From positions 1 to 64,000 of the forward strand of contig CAMNQF010000007.1 in the NCBI GenBank assembly GCA_946548895.1: DNA of 64,000 nucleotides, given 5' to 3'. Under the pieces are notes generated by a model. That model worked only from the letters and a program-made list of their open reading frames with translations. It made no database searches and had not been told where the DNA came from. The DNA is from an uncultured bacterium (GTDB taxonomy: Bacteria; Bacillota; Clostridia; Oscillospirales; Oscillospiraceae). Made by a program: the position numbers and the translations under genes. Below are positions 40,456-62,087 of the stretch, piece by piece (positions within the stretch are counted from its first letter, which is position 1; each line of letters starts with the position of its first letter).

Positions 40456-41371
40456 CATATTCAAAGCGTTCCGCCGGGGCGGGGAAAAGGATGACGCCGA
40501 AACCAGGGTGGAGCCATACCTGTTCCCCGACGCGTCGGAGCTGGTGGTAGAACTGGAGGAAGAGCCGCCCGCCCCGGAAGACCCCCCGCAGGAACCGGAG
40601 GAAATGGGGTTCGACGTGCTGGTGACGGACCCGGAGCTGGACGGGGAACCTGAGCCGGAGCCGGAGACCGGGCCGGAACCGGAGGAGAACCCCATTACCT
40701 TTGCCCAGATTCAGGCGGAGGAGATCCTGGCCGACGCCCGGCAGGACGCGGAGCGCATCGCCCGGCAGGCCCGGGAAGAGGCGGAGCGGATCCTTCAGCA
40801 GGCCCGGGAGGAGGCCGCCCAGGAGGCCGAGGCGGTGTTCGCCAAGGCCCGGGAGGAGGGCTACGTCCAGGGCATGGCCCAGGCAGCCCAGGAGTCCAAG
40901 GCCCTCCGGGAGGAGCAGGCCCAGCGCCAGGAGGAGGAGGTCCACCGCTTTATGGAGCAGGCGGGGGTCGCCCTGGACCGCCAGATGGACCAGAGCGTGG
41001 CCGACCTGCGGGACCTGGCCCTGGCGGTGGCGGAAAAGGTGGTGTGCGTCAGCCTGAAGAGCAGCGCCGACGTGATCAGCCGGATGATCCAGACCGCCAT
41101 TGATAAGAGGAAGAAAAAAGAGTGGGTGCACATATACATCTCTGAGTGCGACGCCAAGCGGCTCACCCAGATCCCCGCGTCCCTGTCCGGCGCGCTGACG
41201 GCCCTGTCCGACCGGGTGCGCATCATCCCCATGGCGGACGACGAGTCGGGCACCTGCATCATCGAAATGCCCGACGAGATCGTGGACGCCAGCGCGGCCA
41301 CCCAGCTGAACAACCTGCGGACCATCCTGATGGACACCGCCAACAGCGCGTCGGGGATGAACCTGTTTTAA
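40448..41371 (+). CDS. fliH: Flagellar assembly protein FliH
   Basis: 307-residue FliH, the stator-like regulator of the FliI ATPase that guides substrates to the export gate. The first 85 residues are acidic and Pro/Glu rich. A long coiled coil (AEEILADARQDAERIARQAREEAERI and on, to about residue 165) and a C-terminal globular part (VHIYISECDAKRL, then GTCIIEMPDEIVDAS) follow, as in the V/A-ATPase E-subunit fold. The start is a TTG with AAAGGA 8 bases upstream, overlapping the fliG stop; no ATG is available nearby. Confidence 0.88.
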   Translation: MPNIFKAFRRGGEKDDAETRVEPYLFPDASELVVELEEEPPAPEDPPQEPEEMGFDVLVTDPELDGEPEPEPETGPEPEENPITFAQIQAEEILADARQDAERIARQAREEAERILQQAREEAAQEAEAVFAKAREEGYVQGMAQAAQESKALREEQAQRQEEEVHRFMEQAGVALDRQMDQSVADLRDLALAVAEKVVCVSLKSSADVISRMIQTAIDKRKKKEWVHIYISECDAKRLTQIPASLSGALTALSDRVRIIPMADDESGTCIIEMPDEIVDASAATQLNNLRTILMDTANSASGMNLF

Positions 41372-49143: not shown

Positions 49144-50169
49144 ATGGCTGAGGTATTGTCGCAGAGCCAGATTGACGCGCTTTTGAACTCTATGCGCAGC
49201 GGAGGCGACGCGGAAAAGGCGGAGGAGAAGCAGCCGGAGAAAAAATACCGCAAATACGACTTCACCACCCCCCGCAAGTTTACCAAGGACCGAATCAAGA
49301 TGCTCAACGGCATCTTCGAGAACTATACCCGTGTTATCAGCTCCCGGCTCAACGCCCAGTTGCGCACCAGCTGCGAGATCACGGTGGAGAGCATTGAGGA
49401 GCAGAAGTTCTACGAGTTCAACAACGCCCTCACCGAAGGGGACGTGCTGGCTATGGTGAACGTGACCATTCACCCGAGAACGGAGGGCGGGGAGGACATC
49501 ATAGCGGAAGATCCGGTGATGGTGTACCTGTCCACCTCCACGGCGCTGGGGATGATGGACCGCATGATGGGCAGCGAGAGCGACGCGGAGCGGGAGGTCC
49601 CCCTGGGCTACGCCTACACCGACCTGGAGCTCCAGCTCTACGAGCACATCATCCGCGACATTATCGCCCTGATGGGCAGCAGCTGGGAGAACTATGTGCC
49701 CGTCACCTTTGAGTATGAGCGCACCCAGGTGAATCCCACCCTGGTTACCCTGCTGAATCTGGACGAGACCGTGGTGCTGGTGGACATGAAGCTGGACTTC
49801 GGCGGCAGCGAGGGACGGATGAGCGTAGTGCTCCCGGGCAATGTGCTGATGAGCGTATTCGGCGAGGTGAACCGGGAGAGCATGGGCCGGAAGATGGCCA
49901 GCGAGGACAACTCGGAGGAGATCTTCGACCAGCTGCGCGACTCCACCCTGGAGATCATCGCCGAGCTGGGCGACACGCAGCTCTCCCTCAGCGATATCTA
50001 CCATCTGAATGTTGGCGACGTAGTGGACCTGGGGCGGAGCAAGGACTCCCCGGTGTTCCTGGAGATCGGCGGTTATCAGTGGTTTACCGGACGCATGGGA
50101 ACCCACAAGAAAAACATGGCCATCAAGATAGACGAGGTATGCTATTCGGCCGAACAAAGGAGCGAGTAA
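49144..50169 (+). CDS. fliM: Flagellar motor switch protein FliM
   Basis: 341-residue C-ring protein. The N-terminal CheY-P-binding peptide LSQSQIDALLNSM is at residues 5-17, then the CheC-like middle domain (FTTPRKFTKDRIKML, RTSCEITVESIEEQ) that binds FliG, and a C-terminal SpoA domain (VGDVVDLGRSKDSPVFL). Length is normal. It is the partner of the unusual FliY directly downstream, 3 bases after its stop. Confidence 0.94.
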   Translation: MAEVLSQSQIDALLNSMRSGGDAEKAEEKQPEKKYRKYDFTTPRKFTKDRIKMLNGIFENYTRVISSRLNAQLRTSCEITVESIEEQKFYEFNNALTEGDVLAMVNVTIHPRTEGGEDIIAEDPVMVYLSTSTALGMMDRMMGSESDAEREVPLGYAYTDLELQLYEHIIRDIIALMGSSWENYVPVTFEYERTQVNPTLVTLLNLDETVVLVDMKLDFGGSEGRMSVVLPGNVLMSVFGEVNRESMGRKMASEDNSEEIFDQLRDSTLEIIAELGDTQLSLSDIYHLNVGDVVDLGRSKDSPVFLEIGGYQWFTGRMGTHKKNMAIKIDEVCYSAEQRSE

Positions 50170-50172
50170 GCG

Positions 50173-51690
50173 ATGGAGAAGGAAATGTTCAGCCCAATGG
50201 CGATAGACGCCTTGGGCGAAATGATGAATATCAGCCTGGGCTCCTCGGCCACCGCGGTGTCAAATATGCTGGACCATCGGGTGGATATCACCACGCCCAC
50301 CGTCTCCGTAGTGGACGTGAAGGATTTCTCCCTGGGCAACCTGGAACCGGCCATCGGTGTGGAGATCAAGTACGTGGAGGGCCTGGAGGGCAGCAACATC
50401 ATGCTGCTCAAGCGCAGCGACATCAAGGTTATCGTAGATATCCTCATGGGCATGGAGACCGCCGACGAGGATTTCGAGCTCAACGAGCTGACCATCAGCT
50501 GCGTGTGCGAGGTCATGAACCAGATGATGGGCTCGGCGGCCACCGCTATGTCCGACTTTCTGGGCTTCCGGGTGGATATCTCCACACCCCAGTCGTTTGA
50601 GCTGGACAATCTGGATCAGTTCAAGCGGGAGCATCTGCCCCAGGGCGCGGACCAGATCGTGGTGGTGCGGTTCTTCTTGAGAATTGAGAACGCGCTGGAG
50701 AGCGAGTTCATGAACGTCATGTCGGTGGCTCTGGCCAAGGAGCTGCTGAAAAGCCTGGGCCTGGAGGACGAGGTGACGTCGGCCGTAGAGGGCGCCCAGC
50801 CCGCCGCCCCGGCGGAGGAGCCGCCCAGCAACCGCCAGATGAGCCAAGAGGAGATTGAGGCTATGCTGGCGGGAAGCGCAGCCGCCGAACCCGCCCCGGC
50901 CCCCGCCCCGGCGGCGGAGCCCTCCGGCGGCGGGCACAAGATGACCCAGGAGGAGATTGAGGCCATGCTGGCGGGCGGCGCGGCCGCCGGACCCGCTCCG
51001 ACCCCCGCCCCGGCGGCGGAGCCCTCCGGCGGCGGGCACAAGATGACCCAGGAGGAGATTGAGGCCATGCTGGCAGGCGGCATAGCCGCCGAACCCACGC
51101 CGCCCCCCGCGCCCCAGGTCCAGCAGCAGGCTCCCGCCGCCCAGGCCCCTGCCGCCGCGCCCCAGATGCCCACGATGCCTCAGATGGGCCAGCCGGGGCA
51201 GATGCCGGCCCCCTATCCTTACCCCGCCCCCGGCGGAGAGGGCCAGATGCAGGGCGGCTATATGGGCTACCCCCCCATGTACTATCCCCCTTATCCCTAT
51301 CCCTATCCGCCGCAGCCTGAGAGCACGGTCCAGAAGGCCGCCCCCGAGCCGAAGCTCATCTCCACCAAGCCGGTGCACATGGAGGAGATGGACCCCATGG
51401 AGCGGCTGGGGAAGGAGCAGGCCCAGAACCTGGACCTCATCATGGAGGTGCCCCTCCAGGTGACGGTGGAAATCGGACGGGCCCGGCGGAAGGTGCAGGA
51501 CATTCTGGAGTTCGCCAAGGGGTCCCTGGTGGTGCTGGATAAGCTGGCGGGCGACCAGGTGGACCTGTTCGTCAACGGCAAGTGCATCGCCCGGGGCGAA
51601 GTTGTGGTCATTGAGGACAACTTCGGCGTCCGCATCACTGAGATTGTGCAGACACCCGCGATTGAAATGCTGTCTGGAAAGAAAAAGTAA
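50173..51690 (+). CDS. fliY: Flagellar motor switch phosphatase FliY with expanded CheY-binding-like linker
   Basis: 505 residues, versus about 380 in Bacillus FliY. Residues 1-200 are a CheC-like domain keeping two phosphatase sites: Asp12/Glu16/Asn19 and Ser109/Glu113/Asn116. A linker of about 200 residues follows. It has three tandem 34-residue repeats from 223, each opening with (M)(S/T)QEEIEAMLAG, then a Pro/Ala/Gln and a Tyr/Pro-rich stretch (YPPYPYPYPPQP). Residues 415-505 are a FliN/SpoA domain (VTVEIGRARRKVQDIL). The usual N-terminal CheY-P-binding peptide is missing: the chain begins directly at the first catalytic helix. The repeats resemble that lost peptide and FliM's own one. 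The protein forms the lower C ring and removes phosphate from CheY. Confidence 0.9.
   Translation: MEKEMFSPMAIDALGEMMNISLGSSATAVSNMLDHRVDITTPTVSVVDVKDFSLGNLEPAIGVEIKYVEGLEGSNIMLLKRSDIKVIVDILMGMETADEDFELNELTISCVCEVMNQMMGSAATAMSDFLGFRVDISTPQSFELDNLDQFKREHLPQGADQIVVVRFFLRIENALESEFMNVMSVALAKELLKSLGLEDEVTSAVEGAQPAAPAEEPPSNRQMSQEEIEAMLAGSAAAEPAPAPAPAAEPSGGGHKMTQEEIEAMLAGGAAAGPAPTPAPAAEPSGGGHKMTQEEIEAMLAGGIAAEPTPPPAPQVQQQAPAAQAPAAAPQMPTMPQMGQPGQMPAPYPYPAPGGEGQMQGGYMGYPPMYYPPYPYPYPPQPESTVQKAAPEPKLISTKPVHMEEMDPMERLGKEQAQNLDLIMEVPLQVTVEIGRARRKVQDILEFAKGSLVVLDKLAGDQVDLFVNGKCIARGEVVVIEDNFGVRITEIVQTPAIEMLSGKKK
50839..51117 (+). repeat. Three tandem 102-base repeats in fliY
   Basis: Units begin at 50839, 50941 and 51043. 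The first two are full 102-base copies; the third is about 75 bases and diverges at its end. They encode MxQEEIEAMLAGxxAA, then a Pro/Ala-rich part and SGGGHK. Copies 1 and 2 differ at a few sites and the third is nearly identical to the second in its first 40 bases, so the duplication looks recent. Confidence 0.9.
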
Positions 51691-51753: not shown

Positions 51754-52122
51754 ATGGCTAAGAAAATTCTGTTAGTGGACGACGCCGCTTTTATGCGCAA
51801 GATGATCAAGGACACCCTGACCAAGAACGGCTACACCGAGGTGTTCGAAGCTGTGGACGGCGCCGACGCGGTGGAGAAGTTCAGCGAGATCGGCCCCGAC
51901 CTGGTGGTTATGGACATCACCATGCCCAACATGGACGGCCTGGAGGCCCTGAAAGCCATCCGCGCCAAGGATGGCAGCGCCAATGTGGTGATGTGCTCCG
52001 CCATGGGGCAGGAGTCCATGGTCATGGACGCCGTGCGCTCCGGCGCCAAGGACTTCATCGTCAAGCCCTTTAAGCCTGACCGTGTCCTCAAGACCGTTAC
52101 CTCCATTCTGGGCGCGCCCTGA
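51754..52122 (+). CDS. cheY: Chemotaxis response regulator CheY
   Basis: 122-residue single-domain receiver. The acidic pocket (VDDAAF, Asp9/Asp10), phosphoacceptor Asp54 in VVMDITMPNMDG, the switch residues and Lys in FIVKPFKPDR are all in place. It binds the switch FliM/FliY when phosphorylated by CheA. It lies between fliY and fliO, as in Bacillus. GGATGG, a modest ribosome site, precedes the ATG. Its stop overlaps the fliO start (TGATG). Confidence 0.94.
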   Translation: MAKKILLVDDAAFMRKMIKDTLTKNGYTEVFEAVDGADAVEKFSEIGPDLVVMDITMPNMDGLEALKAIRAKDGSANVVMCSAMGQESMVMDAVRSGAKDFIVKPFKPDRVLKTVTSILGAP

Positions 52123-55557: not shown

Positions 55558-57663
55558 ATGCTCAAACGCATTCTTGACAATGCCATAGCGCTGTTTGTGG
55601 TGGTTGTGGTCATGTTCCTGTTCATCCCGCTGAACCCCGCCATCCTGGACATCCTGCTGGTGGTCAACATTGGGCTGTCCATCATGATCCTGATGATCAC
55701 CATGAACATCTCCGACGCGCTGGAATTTTCCATTTTCCCGTCCCTGCTGCTCATTACCACCCTGTTCCGGCTGGGCATGAACGTGTCCAGCACCCGGATG
55801 ATCCTCACCACCGGCGACCCCGGCGTGGTCATCCGCAACTTCGGCCAGCTCATCACCCAGGGCGACATCGTGGTGGGCTTCGTGATCTTCTTTATCATTG
55901 TGCTGGTGCAGCTCATCGTCATCACCAAGGGCGCGGAGCGCGTGTCCGAGGTGGCCGCCCGGTTCACCCTGGACGCCATGCCCGGCAAGCAGATGGCCAT
56001 CGACGCCGACCTGTCCTCCGGCCTCATCGACGAGCAGCAGGCCCGGGTACGCCGGGAGAAGATCCAGAAGGAGGCCGACTTCTACGGCGCCATGGACGGC
56101 GCCACCAAGATCGTCAAAGGCGACTCCACCATGTCCATCATCATCACCGTCATCAACCTGGTGGGCGGCGTCATCATCGGCATGGTGATGAGCGGCGACC
56201 CCATCGACGTGGTGATGAGCCGGTACTGCATCCTCACCATCGGCGACGGCCTGGTGTCCCAGATTCCCTCCCTGATGATTTCCACCGCCACCGGCATGAT
56301 CGTCACCCGGTCCGTGTCCGAAGGCAGCCTCAACGCGGATGTGGTGGGGCAGTTCAAGGCCCAGCCCCGGGCCATTATGACCACCGGCGTGATTCTGCTG
56401 ATCCTGGCGGTCATACCAGGCACCCCCACTGTCCCGCTGTTCATCGGCGGCGCGGCCCTGCTGGGGGGAGGATTCTTCCTCAACCGGCGGATGGACGCCC
56501 AGCGCCAGGCGGCCGCCGCCTCGGCCCAGACCCCCGCCGAAATCCCGGAGGAGGCCGCCCCCAGCGAGAGCGACTTCTACAAGGATATCAACAACGTATA
56601 CACCCTGCTGTCGGTGGAGCCGGTGGAGATGGAGTTCGGTTACAGCCTCATCCCCCTGGTGGACGAGCGGCACGGCGGCAAGCTCATCAGCCGCGTCGTC
56701 ATCTTCCGGCGGCAGTATGCCCAGGATATGGGCTTTGTCATCCCCTCCATTCGAATGCACGACTCCTCCACGCTGGGCACCAACCAGTACGCCATCCGCA
56801 TCAAGGGCGAGGTGGTGGCCGAGGGCGAGATCCTGGTGGACTACTACCTGGCCCTGGAGCCCCCCAACCCCCTGGGGGAGATCGACGGCATCGAGACCAT
56901 CGAGCCGGCCTACGGCATCCCCTCCCGGTGGATTCTGCCGGAGAACAAGGAGATGGCGGAAATTTACGGCTACAACGTCATCGACCCCCTGTCCGTCATG
57001 CTGACCCACCTGGCGGAGACGGTGAAAAAGCACGCCTACGAGCTGCTGGACCGGGCGGAGACCATCCGCCTGGTGGAAAACCTGAAGCAGTCCTCCCCGG
57101 AGCTGGTGGAGGAGGCGGTACCCGGTATCATCCCCTACGCCAAGCTGGAGAAGCTGCTGCGGGGCCTGCTCCAGGAGGGCGTGCCCATCAAGGACCTGGG
57201 CACCATCATCGAGACCGCCGCCGACGCTTTCTCCCAGGGCCGGGACCTGGATATGGCCACCGAGCAGGTCCGTGGCGCCCTGGCCCGCACCATCACCCGC
57301 CGCTTCTGCGAGGACGGGCAGCTCCGGGTCATCACCCTGGACGCCGAGGTGGAGAAGCGGATTATCTCCTCCCTCACCCGCAACGAGCAGGGCGTGTACC
57401 TGGCCATGGGCCCCGAGCTGATGCAGACCATTATCTCCCAGCTGGCCGAGCACCTGAAGAAATTCGGCGACCTGTCCCAGACGCCGGTGATCCTGGTCAG
57501 CCAGGTGATCCGGGGCTACTTCAGCCGGATGATTACCCAGTTCTACCCCAACGTCTATGTGCTGTCCTTTAATGAGATCACCAACAACGTGCAGATTCAG
57601 GCCCTGGGCAACATCACCGCCGACGCGCCCGCCCAGGCCCAGCGAAGGGCGGTGGCCACATGA
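55558..57663 (+). CDS. flhA: Flagellar export-gate protein FlhA
   Basis: 701-residue nonameric gate and proton-coupled motor of export. Eight membrane segments occupy residues 1-310, including the conserved LFRLGMNVSSTRMIL and DAMPGKQMAIDADLSSGLIDEQQA loops. A flexible linker and the cytoplasmic substrate-docking domain follow. It keeps normal length. AAGGAGGTG lies 9 bases before the ATG. Its stop overlaps the start of fliA directly; flhF and flhG, which usually follow flhA in Bacillota, are absent from this place. Confidence 0.95.
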   Translation: MLKRILDNAIALFVVVVVMFLFIPLNPAILDILLVVNIGLSIMILMITMNISDALEFSIFPSLLLITTLFRLGMNVSSTRMILTTGDPGVVIRNFGQLITQGDIVVGFVIFFIIVLVQLIVITKGAERVSEVAARFTLDAMPGKQMAIDADLSSGLIDEQQARVRREKIQKEADFYGAMDGATKIVKGDSTMSIIITVINLVGGVIIGMVMSGDPIDVVMSRYCILTIGDGLVSQIPSLMISTATGMIVTRSVSEGSLNADVVGQFKAQPRAIMTTGVILLILAVIPGTPTVPLFIGGAALLGGGFFLNRRMDAQRQAAAASAQTPAEIPEEAAPSESDFYKDINNVYTLLSVEPVEMEFGYSLIPLVDERHGGKLISRVVIFRRQYAQDMGFVIPSIRMHDSSTLGTNQYAIRIKGEVVAEGEILVDYYLALEPPNPLGEIDGIETIEPAYGIPSRWILPENKEMAEIYGYNVIDPLSVMLTHLAETVKKHAYELLDRAETIRLVENLKQSSPELVEEAVPGIIPYAKLEKLLRGLLQEGVPIKDLGTIIETAADAFSQGRDLDMATEQVRGALARTITRRFCEDGQLRVITLDAEVEKRIISSLTRNEQGVYLAMGPELMQTIISQLAEHLKKFGDLSQTPVILVSQVIRGYFSRMITQFYPNVYVLSFNEITNNVQIQALGNITADAPAQAQRRAVAT

Positions 57664-58499
57664 GCCCCGTCCTGGAAAAGCGCCTCACGGAGGACGAGAT
57701 TGAGGCCATGAGCACCCCGGACCTGCTGGCCCTCTACAAGTCCACGGGGGACGAGGAGCTAAAATGGCCCCTGGTCCTGCGGTACGAGGGGCTCATCAAG
57801 AGCGCGGCGCTCCAGATCCGGGGCGTGTACAGCAGCTTTGCCCAGGTGGATGATATCGTCAGCGAGGGCATCCTCACCCTGCTCAACGCCATCGACAAGT
57901 TCGACCCGGAGAAGGGAATCAAGTTTGAGACCTACGTGTCCAAGCGCATCCGTGGGATGGTCATCGACCTGGCCCGGAAGCAGGACTGGCTGCCCCGGAA
58001 CATCCGCCAGCGGGCCAAGGAGATCGACGCCGCGGTGTCCACCCTGGCCAATGAGCTGGGGCGCTTCCCCACCGACCAGGAGGTGGCCGGCCATCTGGGC
58101 GTGCCTACGGACAAGTACCAGAAGGACGCCGCCCGGGTGGCCCTGAGCAACACCTTGTCCCTGGACGCGCTGATGGACGCCAGGGACATGGAGGGCTACC
58201 GCTTCGAGGTGTCCTCCGAGGACCCGTCGGTCCAGCCCGAGCTGGTGCTGGAGGACCAGGAGCTCCAGGAGACCCTGGCCCAGGGGGTGGCCGCGCTGCA
58301 AAAGAACGAGCAGATTGTGCTGTCCCTCTACTATGAAAAAAACCTGCATATGAAGGAGATCGCCCAGGTGATGGGGGTGAGCGAGCCCCGCATCTCCCAG
58401 ATCCACTCCCGGGCCATCCAGAAGCTGCGGGACCACATGAGCGGATACCTGAACAGTGAAGCTCCTGCGAAAAACTCCAAAAAGCGGAAGAAGGCATGA
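57660..58499 (+). CDS. fliA: RNA polymerase sigma factor FliA/WhiG (SigD) family
   Basis: 279-residue alternative sigma factor for late flagellar and chemotaxis genes. Region 2 has LRYEGLIKSAA and FETYVSKRIRGMVIDLARKQDWLPRNIRQRAKEI, region 3 is recognisable by ELGRFPTDQEVAGHLGV, and region 4 has the helix-turn-helix MKEIAQVMGVSEPRISQIHSRAIQKL. This is the FliA/WhiG/SigD pattern; an anti-sigma FlgM is not in the window. It overlaps flhA by 4 bases (ATGA). Confidence 0.93.
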   Translation: MSPVLEKRLTEDEIEAMSTPDLLALYKSTGDEELKWPLVLRYEGLIKSAALQIRGVYSSFAQVDDIVSEGILTLLNAIDKFDPEKGIKFETYVSKRIRGMVIDLARKQDWLPRNIRQRAKEIDAAVSTLANELGRFPTDQEVAGHLGVPTDKYQKDAARVALSNTLSLDALMDARDMEGYRFEVSSEDPSVQPELVLEDQELQETLAQGVAALQKNEQIVLSLYYEKNLHMKEIAQVMGVSEPRISQIHSRAIQKLRDHMSGYLNSEAPAKNSKKRKKA

Positions 58500-60025: not shown

Positions 60026-60652
60026 ATGTCGATTAAGAATTACGACGAGCTGAACTCCCTGGAGCTGGACACCCTCCGGGAAATCGGCAGCGTCGGCACC
60101 GGCAACGCCGCCACCGCCCTGTCCCAGATGCTGGGCAGGCAGGTGCGCATCACGCTGCCCGAGGTGCGCATTATGGGCTACAACGAGGCCATTGAGTGGA
60201 TCGGCGGCCCGGAGGAGATCACCGCCGGCGTGCTGGTGAAACTCAGCGGCCATGTCAACGGCATCATGCTGTCGGTACAGCCGCTGGAATTTGTCAATAT
60301 CGTGCTGGAGAGCATGATGGGGAAGACGGTGGGCAGCTACGACCAACTGACGGAGATGGAGCACTCCGCCCTGGTGGAGGTGGGCAACATCATGATTTCC
60401 ACCTTCATCAACGCCCTGAGCGGCCTGGCCGGCATGGATGTGAACCTGACGGTGCCCGCCTTCACCGTGGATATGCAGGGCGCTATTCTGGCGGTGCCTA
60501 TGGCGGAGTACGGCGGGCAGTCCGACTACATCATGACCATCGGAGGCAACTTTGTGAGCGAGAACAAGCAGGTTCCCTGCCGCCTGCTGATGTCGCCGGA
60601 CCTGAGGTCCTTAAATGCCCTTTTACGGAAGCTGGGCGTAAGCGATGGCTGA
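60026..60652 (+). CDS. cheC: CheY-P phosphatase CheC
   Basis: 208-residue CheC, which dephosphorylates CheY and binds CheD. It has two phosphatase-type helices: LDTLREIGSVGTGNAATAL (Glu19, with Ser22 where the family has Asn) and HSALVEVGNIMISTFINAL (Glu118, Asn121, complete). The N-terminal site therefore lacks its catalytic asparagine. AGGAGG lies about 8 bases before the ATG. Its 3' end overlaps cheD by 8 bases, as is usual for this interacting pair. Confidence 0.93.
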   Translation: MSIKNYDELNSLELDTLREIGSVGTGNAATALSQMLGRQVRITLPEVRIMGYNEAIEWIGGPEEITAGVLVKLSGHVNGIMLSVQPLEFVNIVLESMMGKTVGSYDQLTEMEHSALVEVGNIMISTFINALSGLAGMDVNLTVPAFTVDMQGAILAVPMAEYGGQSDYIMTIGGNFVSENKQVPCRLLMSPDLRSLNALLRKLGVSDG

Positions 60653-61124: not shown

Positions 61125-61154
61125 CACCGCGACAGCGGAGAGGGAGTGTTGGCA

Positions 61155-62087
61155 ATGATGGAAGATAATAAACAGGGCATCCTGCTGGAATCCGGCACCA
61201 ATGAGATTGAGATCATGAAGTTCACCATCGGCGGAAACCTGTACGGCATCAACGTGGCCAAGGTGCGGGAGATTATGATCTCCGCGCCGGTAAAGCCCAT
61301 GCCCATGGCCCACCCGTCGGTGGAGGGCATTTTCAAACCCCGGGACACGGTGCTCACCGTGGTGGACCTGCCCAAGTACCTGGGCGTGGAGAGCCCTAAG
61401 GACCCCAAGGACATCTTCATCATCACCAACTTCAACAAGATGTTCATCGCCTTCCGGGTCCACGCCGTGGACCGCATCAGCCGCATCTCCTGGACGGACA
61501 TCCAGAAGCCGGACAAGACCGTTTCCGGCGGGGCGGAGGGCGTGGCCACCGGCATCGCCCAGTGCGACGGCGAACTGGTCACCATCCTGGATTTTGAGCG
61601 CATTGTGGCTGAGATCGCCCCGGAGACCTCCATCCAGATGTCTGAGGTGGAGCAGCTGGGCCCCCGGGACCGCAACGACAAGCCCATCTGGGTGGCGGAG
61701 GACTCTATCCTGTTGAGCAAGATGATTGAGGATTCCCTGCGCAAGGCCAACTATGTGAACCTGCATATGTTCTCCAACGGCCTGGAGCTGTGGGAGGCCC
61801 TGGCTTCCCTGCCCCAGGAGGGCGATGTGTTCCGGGACGTGGCCCTCATCATCACCGACATTGAGATGCCGCAGATGGACGGCCACCGGCTGACCAAGCT
61901 GGTGAAGGAAAATAACCGGCTGAAGCAGATTCCCCTCATCATTTTCTCCTCCCTCATCAGCGAGGAGATGCGGCGCAAGGGCAGGGACTTGGGCGCCGAC
62001 GAACAGCTCACCAAGCCGGAGATTGGCCACCTGGTGGACGTGATGGACCGCCTGCTGGCGCGCCAGGATCGGCAGGCCAGGGGCTGA
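61155..62087 (+). CDS. cheV: Chemotaxis coupling protein CheV (CheW-REC)
   Basis: 310-residue fusion of a CheW coupling domain (residues 15-165; IMKFTIGGNLYGINVAKVREIM) and a receiver domain (180-305) with Asp235 in IITDIEMPQMDG and a conserved lysine in LTKPEIG. CheV couples receptors to CheA and adapts the response by its own phosphorylation. ATG at 61155 is chosen for the GGAGAGGGAG site 8 bases upstream; the open frame begins at GTG 61146. It is the last gene of the fla/che operon; cheA, cheW, cheB and cheR are not in the window. Confidence 0.91.
   Translation: MMEDNKQGILLESGTNEIEIMKFTIGGNLYGINVAKVREIMISAPVKPMPMAHPSVEGIFKPRDTVLTVVDLPKYLGVESPKDPKDIFIITNFNKMFIAFRVHAVDRISRISWTDIQKPDKTVSGGAEGVATGIAQCDGELVTILDFERIVAEIAPETSIQMSEVEQLGPRDRNDKPIWVAEDSILLSKMIEDSLRKANYVNLHMFSNGLELWEALASLPQEGDVFRDVALIITDIEMPQMDGHRLTKLVKENNRLKQIPLIIFSSLISEEMRRKGRDLGADEQLTKPEIGHLVDVMDRLLARQDRQARG

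Follow-up and report, generated by a model that had tools for sequence, protein, structure and literature searches.

The closest described counterparts of the protein considered here are the FliY proteins of Bacillus and Geobacillus, in which a CheC-like domain with two ExxN pairs is followed by a FliN/SpoA domain, and an LSQxEI-type peptide containing the sequence EIDAL is located at the N-terminus. On the basis of work on CheC, CheX and FliY, we take the ExxN pairs to be the catalytic phosphatase sites. In Bacillus, the gene lies in the order fliM-fliY-cheY, and flhF and flhG are usually found between flhA and the sigma factor gene; CheZ has a fold unrelated to that of FliY. A CheY-binding peptide (FliMN) with the core L/M-S-Q-x-x-I-x-x-L-L, which is shared by the motifs described below, occurs once, at the N-terminus of FliM. 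One study states that all motile bacteria have the EIDALL motif in their FliM and FliY (PMC9126983). Moreover, in Geobacillus, FlhG is reported to bind the N-terminal 36 residues of FliY, the sole part needed (PMC12327844). In the open-licence papers that we searched, we found no description of internal or repeated docking motifs in FliY.

The window, by which we mean the whole 64,000-nucleotide stretch of DNA analysed, encodes a FliY that shares the domain order, the two ExxN pairs, the peptide type and the gene order of the Bacillus and Geobacillus proteins and differs from them in the place and number of the peptides (Table 1). Residues about 1-195 correspond to the CheC-like phosphatase domain (PF04509, 87 bits; CheX, PF13690, also matches with 28.7 bits), the activity of which is predicted, and residues 422-492 to a C-terminal FliN/SpoA domain (PF01052, 80 bits), the two being connected by a long Pro/Ala-rich linker. 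The succession of these domains in a single chain, together with the gene order fliM-fliY-cheY, agrees with the identification as FliY, a flagellar motor protein that probably clears the swimming signal. Among solved structures, the protein matches the FliN structure 1o6a (E 9.2e-25) and the CheC/FliN fusion protein 4hyn (E 2.3e-30), which we take to be T. maritima FliY and in which the catalytic domain is the same by sequence. The N-terminus reads MEKEMFSPMAIDALGEMMNIS and lies at the first phosphatase helix; a stop codon in the same frame, two codons before the start, makes an N-terminal extension impossible, and the statement of the first-pass annotation that the protein begins directly at this helix, with no N-terminal motif, holds.

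Table 1. Coordinates in the window of fliY, its catalytic pairs and linker motifs, and the neighboring genes considered in the text
Feature	Coordinates	Strand	Basis
fliM, with N-terminal LSQSQIDALL	49144..50169	+	ORF, profile search, N-terminal motif reading
fliY	50173..51690	+	505-aa ORF
First ExxN pair, E16 and N19	50218..50229	+	Columns invariant in 57 aligned FliYs
Second ExxN pair, E113 and N116	50509..50520	+	Columns invariant in 57 aligned FliYs
Linker motif 1, MSQEEIEAML, residues 223-232	50839..50868	+	Coordinate arithmetic from ORF; repeat finding
Linker motif 2, MTQEEIEAML, residues 257-266	50941..50970	+	Coordinate arithmetic from ORF; repeat finding
Linker motif 3, MTQEEIEAML, residues 291-300	51043..51072	+	Coordinate arithmetic from ORF; repeat finding
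cheY, expected ligand (putative)	51754..52122	+	PF00072
Separate CheC-like gene (cheC)	60026..60652	+	By eye and weak FliY match
CheV-like gene	61146-62087		Named by eye

The linker contains three tandem 34-residue units, as originally noticed, each with the motif M[S/T]QEEIEAML and with successive motifs 34 and 34 residues apart. Tandem Repeats Finder reports the array at 50837-51110 (period 102, 2.7 copies, 90% matches, score 443), the top-scoring of 27 rows in the window; the second strongest tandem repeat, with a score of 104, lies at 40736-40815 (period 33, 2.4 copies). The description of the DNA copies as nearly identical is somewhat strong: they are alike, but over 102-base stretches, the third of which runs past the end of the array, the identities are 85% (units 1 and 2), 81% (units 2 and 3) and 72% (units 1 and 3). 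A DNA pattern coding for QEEIEA occurs four times in the genome, always in fliY, namely in the three copies and on a redundant contig. This second contig (C15) is 100% identical to the end of the contig of the window (C7) over 60,793 bases, begins inside the fliY array, overlaps C7 from position 51020 onward and probably stems from a fork in the assembly graph. Given this start within the array and a longest exact repeat of 73 bases, the number of middle copies holds only as assembled; the three units differ in sequence and so are distinguishable as assembled, and additional middle copies are possible.

The Pro/Ala-rich composition, the repetitive DNA and the assembly fork inside the array would all suit an artefact of assembly or a low-complexity filler without conservation, and the first-pass annotation itself named unconserved filler in relatives as the outcome that would speak against its reading, proposing that the linker repeats of aligned Oscillospiraceae FliYs be counted. 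Such a count was made on the FliY of the window together with the best 80 of 503 relatives found in a scan of named genomes, a set biased toward look-alikes because only the best 80 were kept. Among these 81 FliYs, three of which are incomplete (L052, L065, L094), the linker motif is present in 80, from separate assemblies, and is conserved across the clade: one FliY (L072) has no copy, six have one, 23 have two, 40 have three, 10 have four and one has five, for a total of 217. All matches fall inside the linker, at distances of 23-41 residues from one another, and an N-terminal motif was found in none of the 80 FliYs with a readable N-terminus (L052 has no start). A 10-residue motif expression, widened after the sequences had been viewed (Arg at position 8), gave 208 matches in 78 linkers of the family and, used in the same widened form, none in 200 rounds of shuffling. 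For the motif, the filler reading is refuted by these counts, and for the array as a whole we give filler or artefact almost no credence.

In this set (window and best 80 of 503), variation differs along the motif. Among the 217 copies, Ser occupies position 2 in 206, Gln position 3 in 216, Ile position 6 in 215 and Glu position 7 in 207; position 4 is Glu (170) or Ala (37), position 5 is Glu in 192, and M/L, K/A/R, M/L and L/M are found at positions 1, 8, 9 and 10, respectively. The Ile codons are ATC (117), ATT (73) and ATA (25), Ser is encoded by all six of its codons, and the flanks and spacers between the motifs are variable stretches of Pro, Ala, Glu and Ser. The combination of a conserved core with varied synonymous codons and variable flanks suggests selection on the peptide. 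Furthermore, the motif identity is 8.80 of 10 within a protein vs 7.03 between proteins, and in the window the first unit resembles the second (0.85) more closely than it resembles the first unit of the near relative L030 (0.77), from which it follows that the array turns over. The copy number differs between species, from 0 to 5 linker motifs among the 81.

Many genomes of Oscillospiraceae and Lachnospiraceae encode FliYs with linker motifs. Within the genus, 20 of the 42 genomes searched, the source genome included, have a FliY match; of the 19 further FliYs, 17 have three motifs, one has four and one has one. The L030 gene is, by its coordinates, that of the congener G023, so the genus FliYs and the best-80 set are not independent. 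With FliY found in 20 of 42 genomes, motility seems to be patchy within the genus; among the 24 genomes with a completeness of 90% or more and a contamination of 5% or less, eight have a FliY match.

Compared with the LSQxEIDALL consensus, the linker motif agrees at positions 1-6 and 9-10, often with Met for Leu, which supports the original assignment to the same kind of peptide as the N-terminal ones of FliY and FliM. The differences are concentrated at position 8 (K/A/R) and at position 7, which is Glu in nearly all linker motifs (207 of 217, window and best 80 of 503) vs Asp or Asn in 102 of 104 FliYs with an N-terminal motif, so that EIE stands for EID. This substitution could weaken or redirect the binding of CheY-P. 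It would fit docking of some other partner, such as FliM, the CheC domain of FliY itself (autoinhibition), the receiver domain of CheV or the export apparatus, and a CheV-like gene is indeed present in the window. Nevertheless, nothing positive points to any of these partners and most residues common to CheY-docking peptides are kept, which makes this alternative improbable in our estimation. A search of solved structures with one linker unit and with the FliM N-terminus gave best E values of 0.5 and 0.015, respectively, none of which we take as meaningful.

The FliM encoded next to this FliY carries VLSQSQIDALLN at its N-terminus, in accord with the docking-type motif initially attributed to it. 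FliM was found at 79 of the 81 loci (window and best 80 of 503) and retains the N-terminal motif in all 79; in these genomes, the FliM peptide is single, N-terminal and LSQxQIDALL-like, in contrast to the motifs of the FliY linker, which are internal, usually several and of the form xEIE. Position 5 of the FliM motif is Gln at all 79 loci vs Glu in 61 of 63 genomes of the class sample (described below) with an N-terminal FliY motif and a readable FliM (61 of 62 of those with FlhF). Among class genomes with neither FliY motif, it is Glu in both of those with FlhF, and Gln in three and Glu in two of those without. These differences look as if the docking of the two proteins were tuned apart, as could be expected if the linker motifs bound CheY-P mainly as a buffer or as a further input to the switch at the C-ring, either in competition with FliM or by FliY-driven switching, rather than to supply the phosphatase. 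The catalytic pairs, however, are invariant in 57 of 57 aligned FliYs, which favors a link to dephosphorylation, and we regard a buffering or switching role as unlikely.

The neighboring CheY matches two solved CheY chains, 1tmy with an E value of 1.4e-41 and 4iga with one of 1.6e-41; we take both to be T. maritima proteins, the latter presumably the structure of CheY with a FliM peptide that appears among the references of PMC6946799. A comparison of CheY from 54 loci of the linker type and 92 of the N-terminal type yielded 20 group-specific columns; the docking face shows no excess of them, with 6 among its 36 columns vs 14 of 83 elsewhere, and co-variation of CheY on this face was rejected. 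In the separate CheC-like gene, positions 60053-60472 match FliY residues 7-145 (E 8.8e-9).

With respect to the distribution of the two arrangements, three further samples were drawn, in each of which the source genome is included: 245 genomes of the class (92 with a match at 1e-25), 295 of the order (26 at 1e-40) and 249 of the phylum (206 at 1e-20). Of the 91 other class genomes, all but G043 and G126 were read, and 84 of these 89 sequences were usable after exclusion of L122, L143, L149 and L163, which lack a whole ORF, and L208, which lacks the N-terminus. Also read were the order's 24 other genomes, once G158, already counted in the class, is set aside, and the 29 best new matches of the phylum. 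Genome G407 of the order encodes two linker-type FliYs (L217 and L240) on separate contigs, the second of which was omitted from the count. With N-terminal and linker expressions that were widened after the sequences had been viewed, 104 FliYs have only the N-terminal motif, which is of the LSQEEIDALL type, 12 have only the linker motif (four of these as partial ORFs), 21 have neither and none has both. The statement that FliM and FliY carry the EIDALL motif in all motile bacteria (PMC9126983) does not agree with the 21 FliYs that have neither motif. Together with the window and 47 members of the best-80 set, the linker type comprises 60 genomes, some of them possibly close kin or of the same species, with no N-terminal motif in any FliY. 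The median length of the linker is about 190 residues in 78 FliYs of the linker type vs about 78 in the 104 of the N-terminal type, with cut points that differ somewhat.

In a quick tree of 124 rows, built on the two domains with the linker omitted, the linker-type FliYs lie inside a branch of 42 rows (SH-aLRT 99) and the linker type requires three changes, as it does in a larger tree; this is consistent with a single gain and with losses in L072 and L124. The absence of the motif from L072 and of either motif from 12 of the 24 order FliYs indicates that it is dispensable. The first-pass annotation had the docking peptide moved into the linker and multiplied there. The linker position and the multiple copies are observed, but the direct move is an interpretation, because the 12 order FliYs with neither motif fit a loss of the N-terminal peptide followed by a gain in the linker equally well.

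The first-pass annotation also left out FlhG, the second known ligand of the FliY N-terminal peptide, which raises the alternative that the linker motifs serve the placement or timing of C-ring assembly by binding FlhG or a different MinD-like ATPase, inasmuch as a peptide of the same kind is reported to bind FlhG in Geobacillus (PMC12327844). We searched for FlhF with TIGR03499 and found no match over the cut-off in 42 genus genomes, the source genome included (2 of 14 control genomes were over it), in the 47 linker-type genomes chosen from the best 80 of 503 or in the 12 further ones from the class, order and phylum samples. Overall, FlhF was found in 0 of the 60 linker-type genomes tested vs 102 of 104 genomes of the N-terminal type, the remaining two being 91% and 88% complete, and FlhG follows where tested; to our reading this is a new observation. 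FlhF is over the cut-off in 88 of 245 class genomes and 28 of 53 order and phylum genomes, and across the three samples N-terminal motif and FlhF occur together in 102, neither in 30, FlhF only in three and the motif only in two. An FlhG query scored 220-284 bits in six of six FlhF-bearing genomes (five of the N-terminal type and G282, unclassified owing to a broken FliY ORF), with second-best matches of 83-97 bits, and at best 41-86 bits in all 14 genomes tested without FlhF, which include G030, with no FliY match, and G200, with a split and unclassified FliY; the 41-86-bit and 83-97-bit matches are taken as MinD/ParA kin. In the window, a FliA-type sigma factor gene comes immediately after flhA (55558-58499), with no flhF or flhG between the two, the genes being named by eye.

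Thus, neither FlhF nor an FlhG-level match, which would be expected to accompany an FlhG-binding FliY N-terminus, was found in the linker-type genomes tested, and FlhG is judged unlikely as the partner of the linker motifs; for binding of FlhG or another MinD-like ATPase, we see very little chance. On the tree, the motif requires five changes and FlhF four, and one or two of four independent pairs are informative, none of them against the link. With so few independent events, the association of motif and FlhF cannot reach significance, and a statistical linkage was dropped; the absence of FlhF from linker-type genomes is consistent with such a link, not proof of it.

With FlhG, the other known partner of the peptide, unlikely, CheY-P is the best candidate ligand. 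We hold it reasonably probable, going by the sequences, that the linker motifs are CheY-P docking peptides that were moved into, or regained in, a lengthened linker and multiplied, and that they feed the phosphatase within the ring. The lengthened linker would probably be disordered, and CheY-P at the C-ring would dock through its alpha4-beta5-alpha5 face on any of the three motifs, which may turn into short helices on binding. The flexible chain could then hand it on to the weak ExxN sites, either of that FliY or of a neighboring one, such that the phosphatase would gain local CheY-P concentration and re-capture, and the multiplicity of motifs may raise turnover or retention.

The tether would thereby benefit FliY as its C-terminal CheY-binding helix benefits CheZ, in which the main affinity for CheY-P is reported to reside in this helix on a flexible tether, the active site being weak (PMC1447658); CheZ differs in having a single helix, at the C-terminus, and in acting outside the motor ring. 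Similarly, a proposal for FliM is that a disordered linker brings bound CheY to second sites, and the same paper reports no raised affinity of T. maritima FliY for activated CheY (PMC7355467). More tentatively, one could imagine, with some doubt, that in Bacillota the N-terminal peptide of FliY is held mainly by FlhG, for assembly, with CheY docking second, and that without FlhF and FlhG the peptide was freed and re-established as a multivalent internal CheY-P array, with the change from Glu to Gln at position 5 of FliM providing for differing affinity. If this were so, the assembly and signaling roles of one short motif would have been separated. The two arrangements also offer a natural test of whether FlhG or CheY-P is the ligand that retains the EIDAL peptide at the FliY N-terminus.

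Multiplication of the peptide is not confined to the linker. The FliY of one FlhF-bearing genome of the phylum (L247, genome G620) has three N-terminal motifs, LSQEEIDALL, LSQEDIDAML and LSQEDIDAML, 27 residues apart; lying outside the 42-row branch, it is, on its placement in the tree, an independent multiplication at the usual N-terminal place. Nature thus provides a series of 0 to 5 internal docking peptides and one lineage with three N-terminal ones, by which the tethering and valency of CheY-P capture can be related to phosphatase action and motor response, and the arrangement represents a testable way for the motor to capture and clear its signal. In another FliY of the phylum, with no recognised motif (L254, genome G670), the 622-residue frame contains a tandem pair of CheC-like stretches ahead of the FliN domain.
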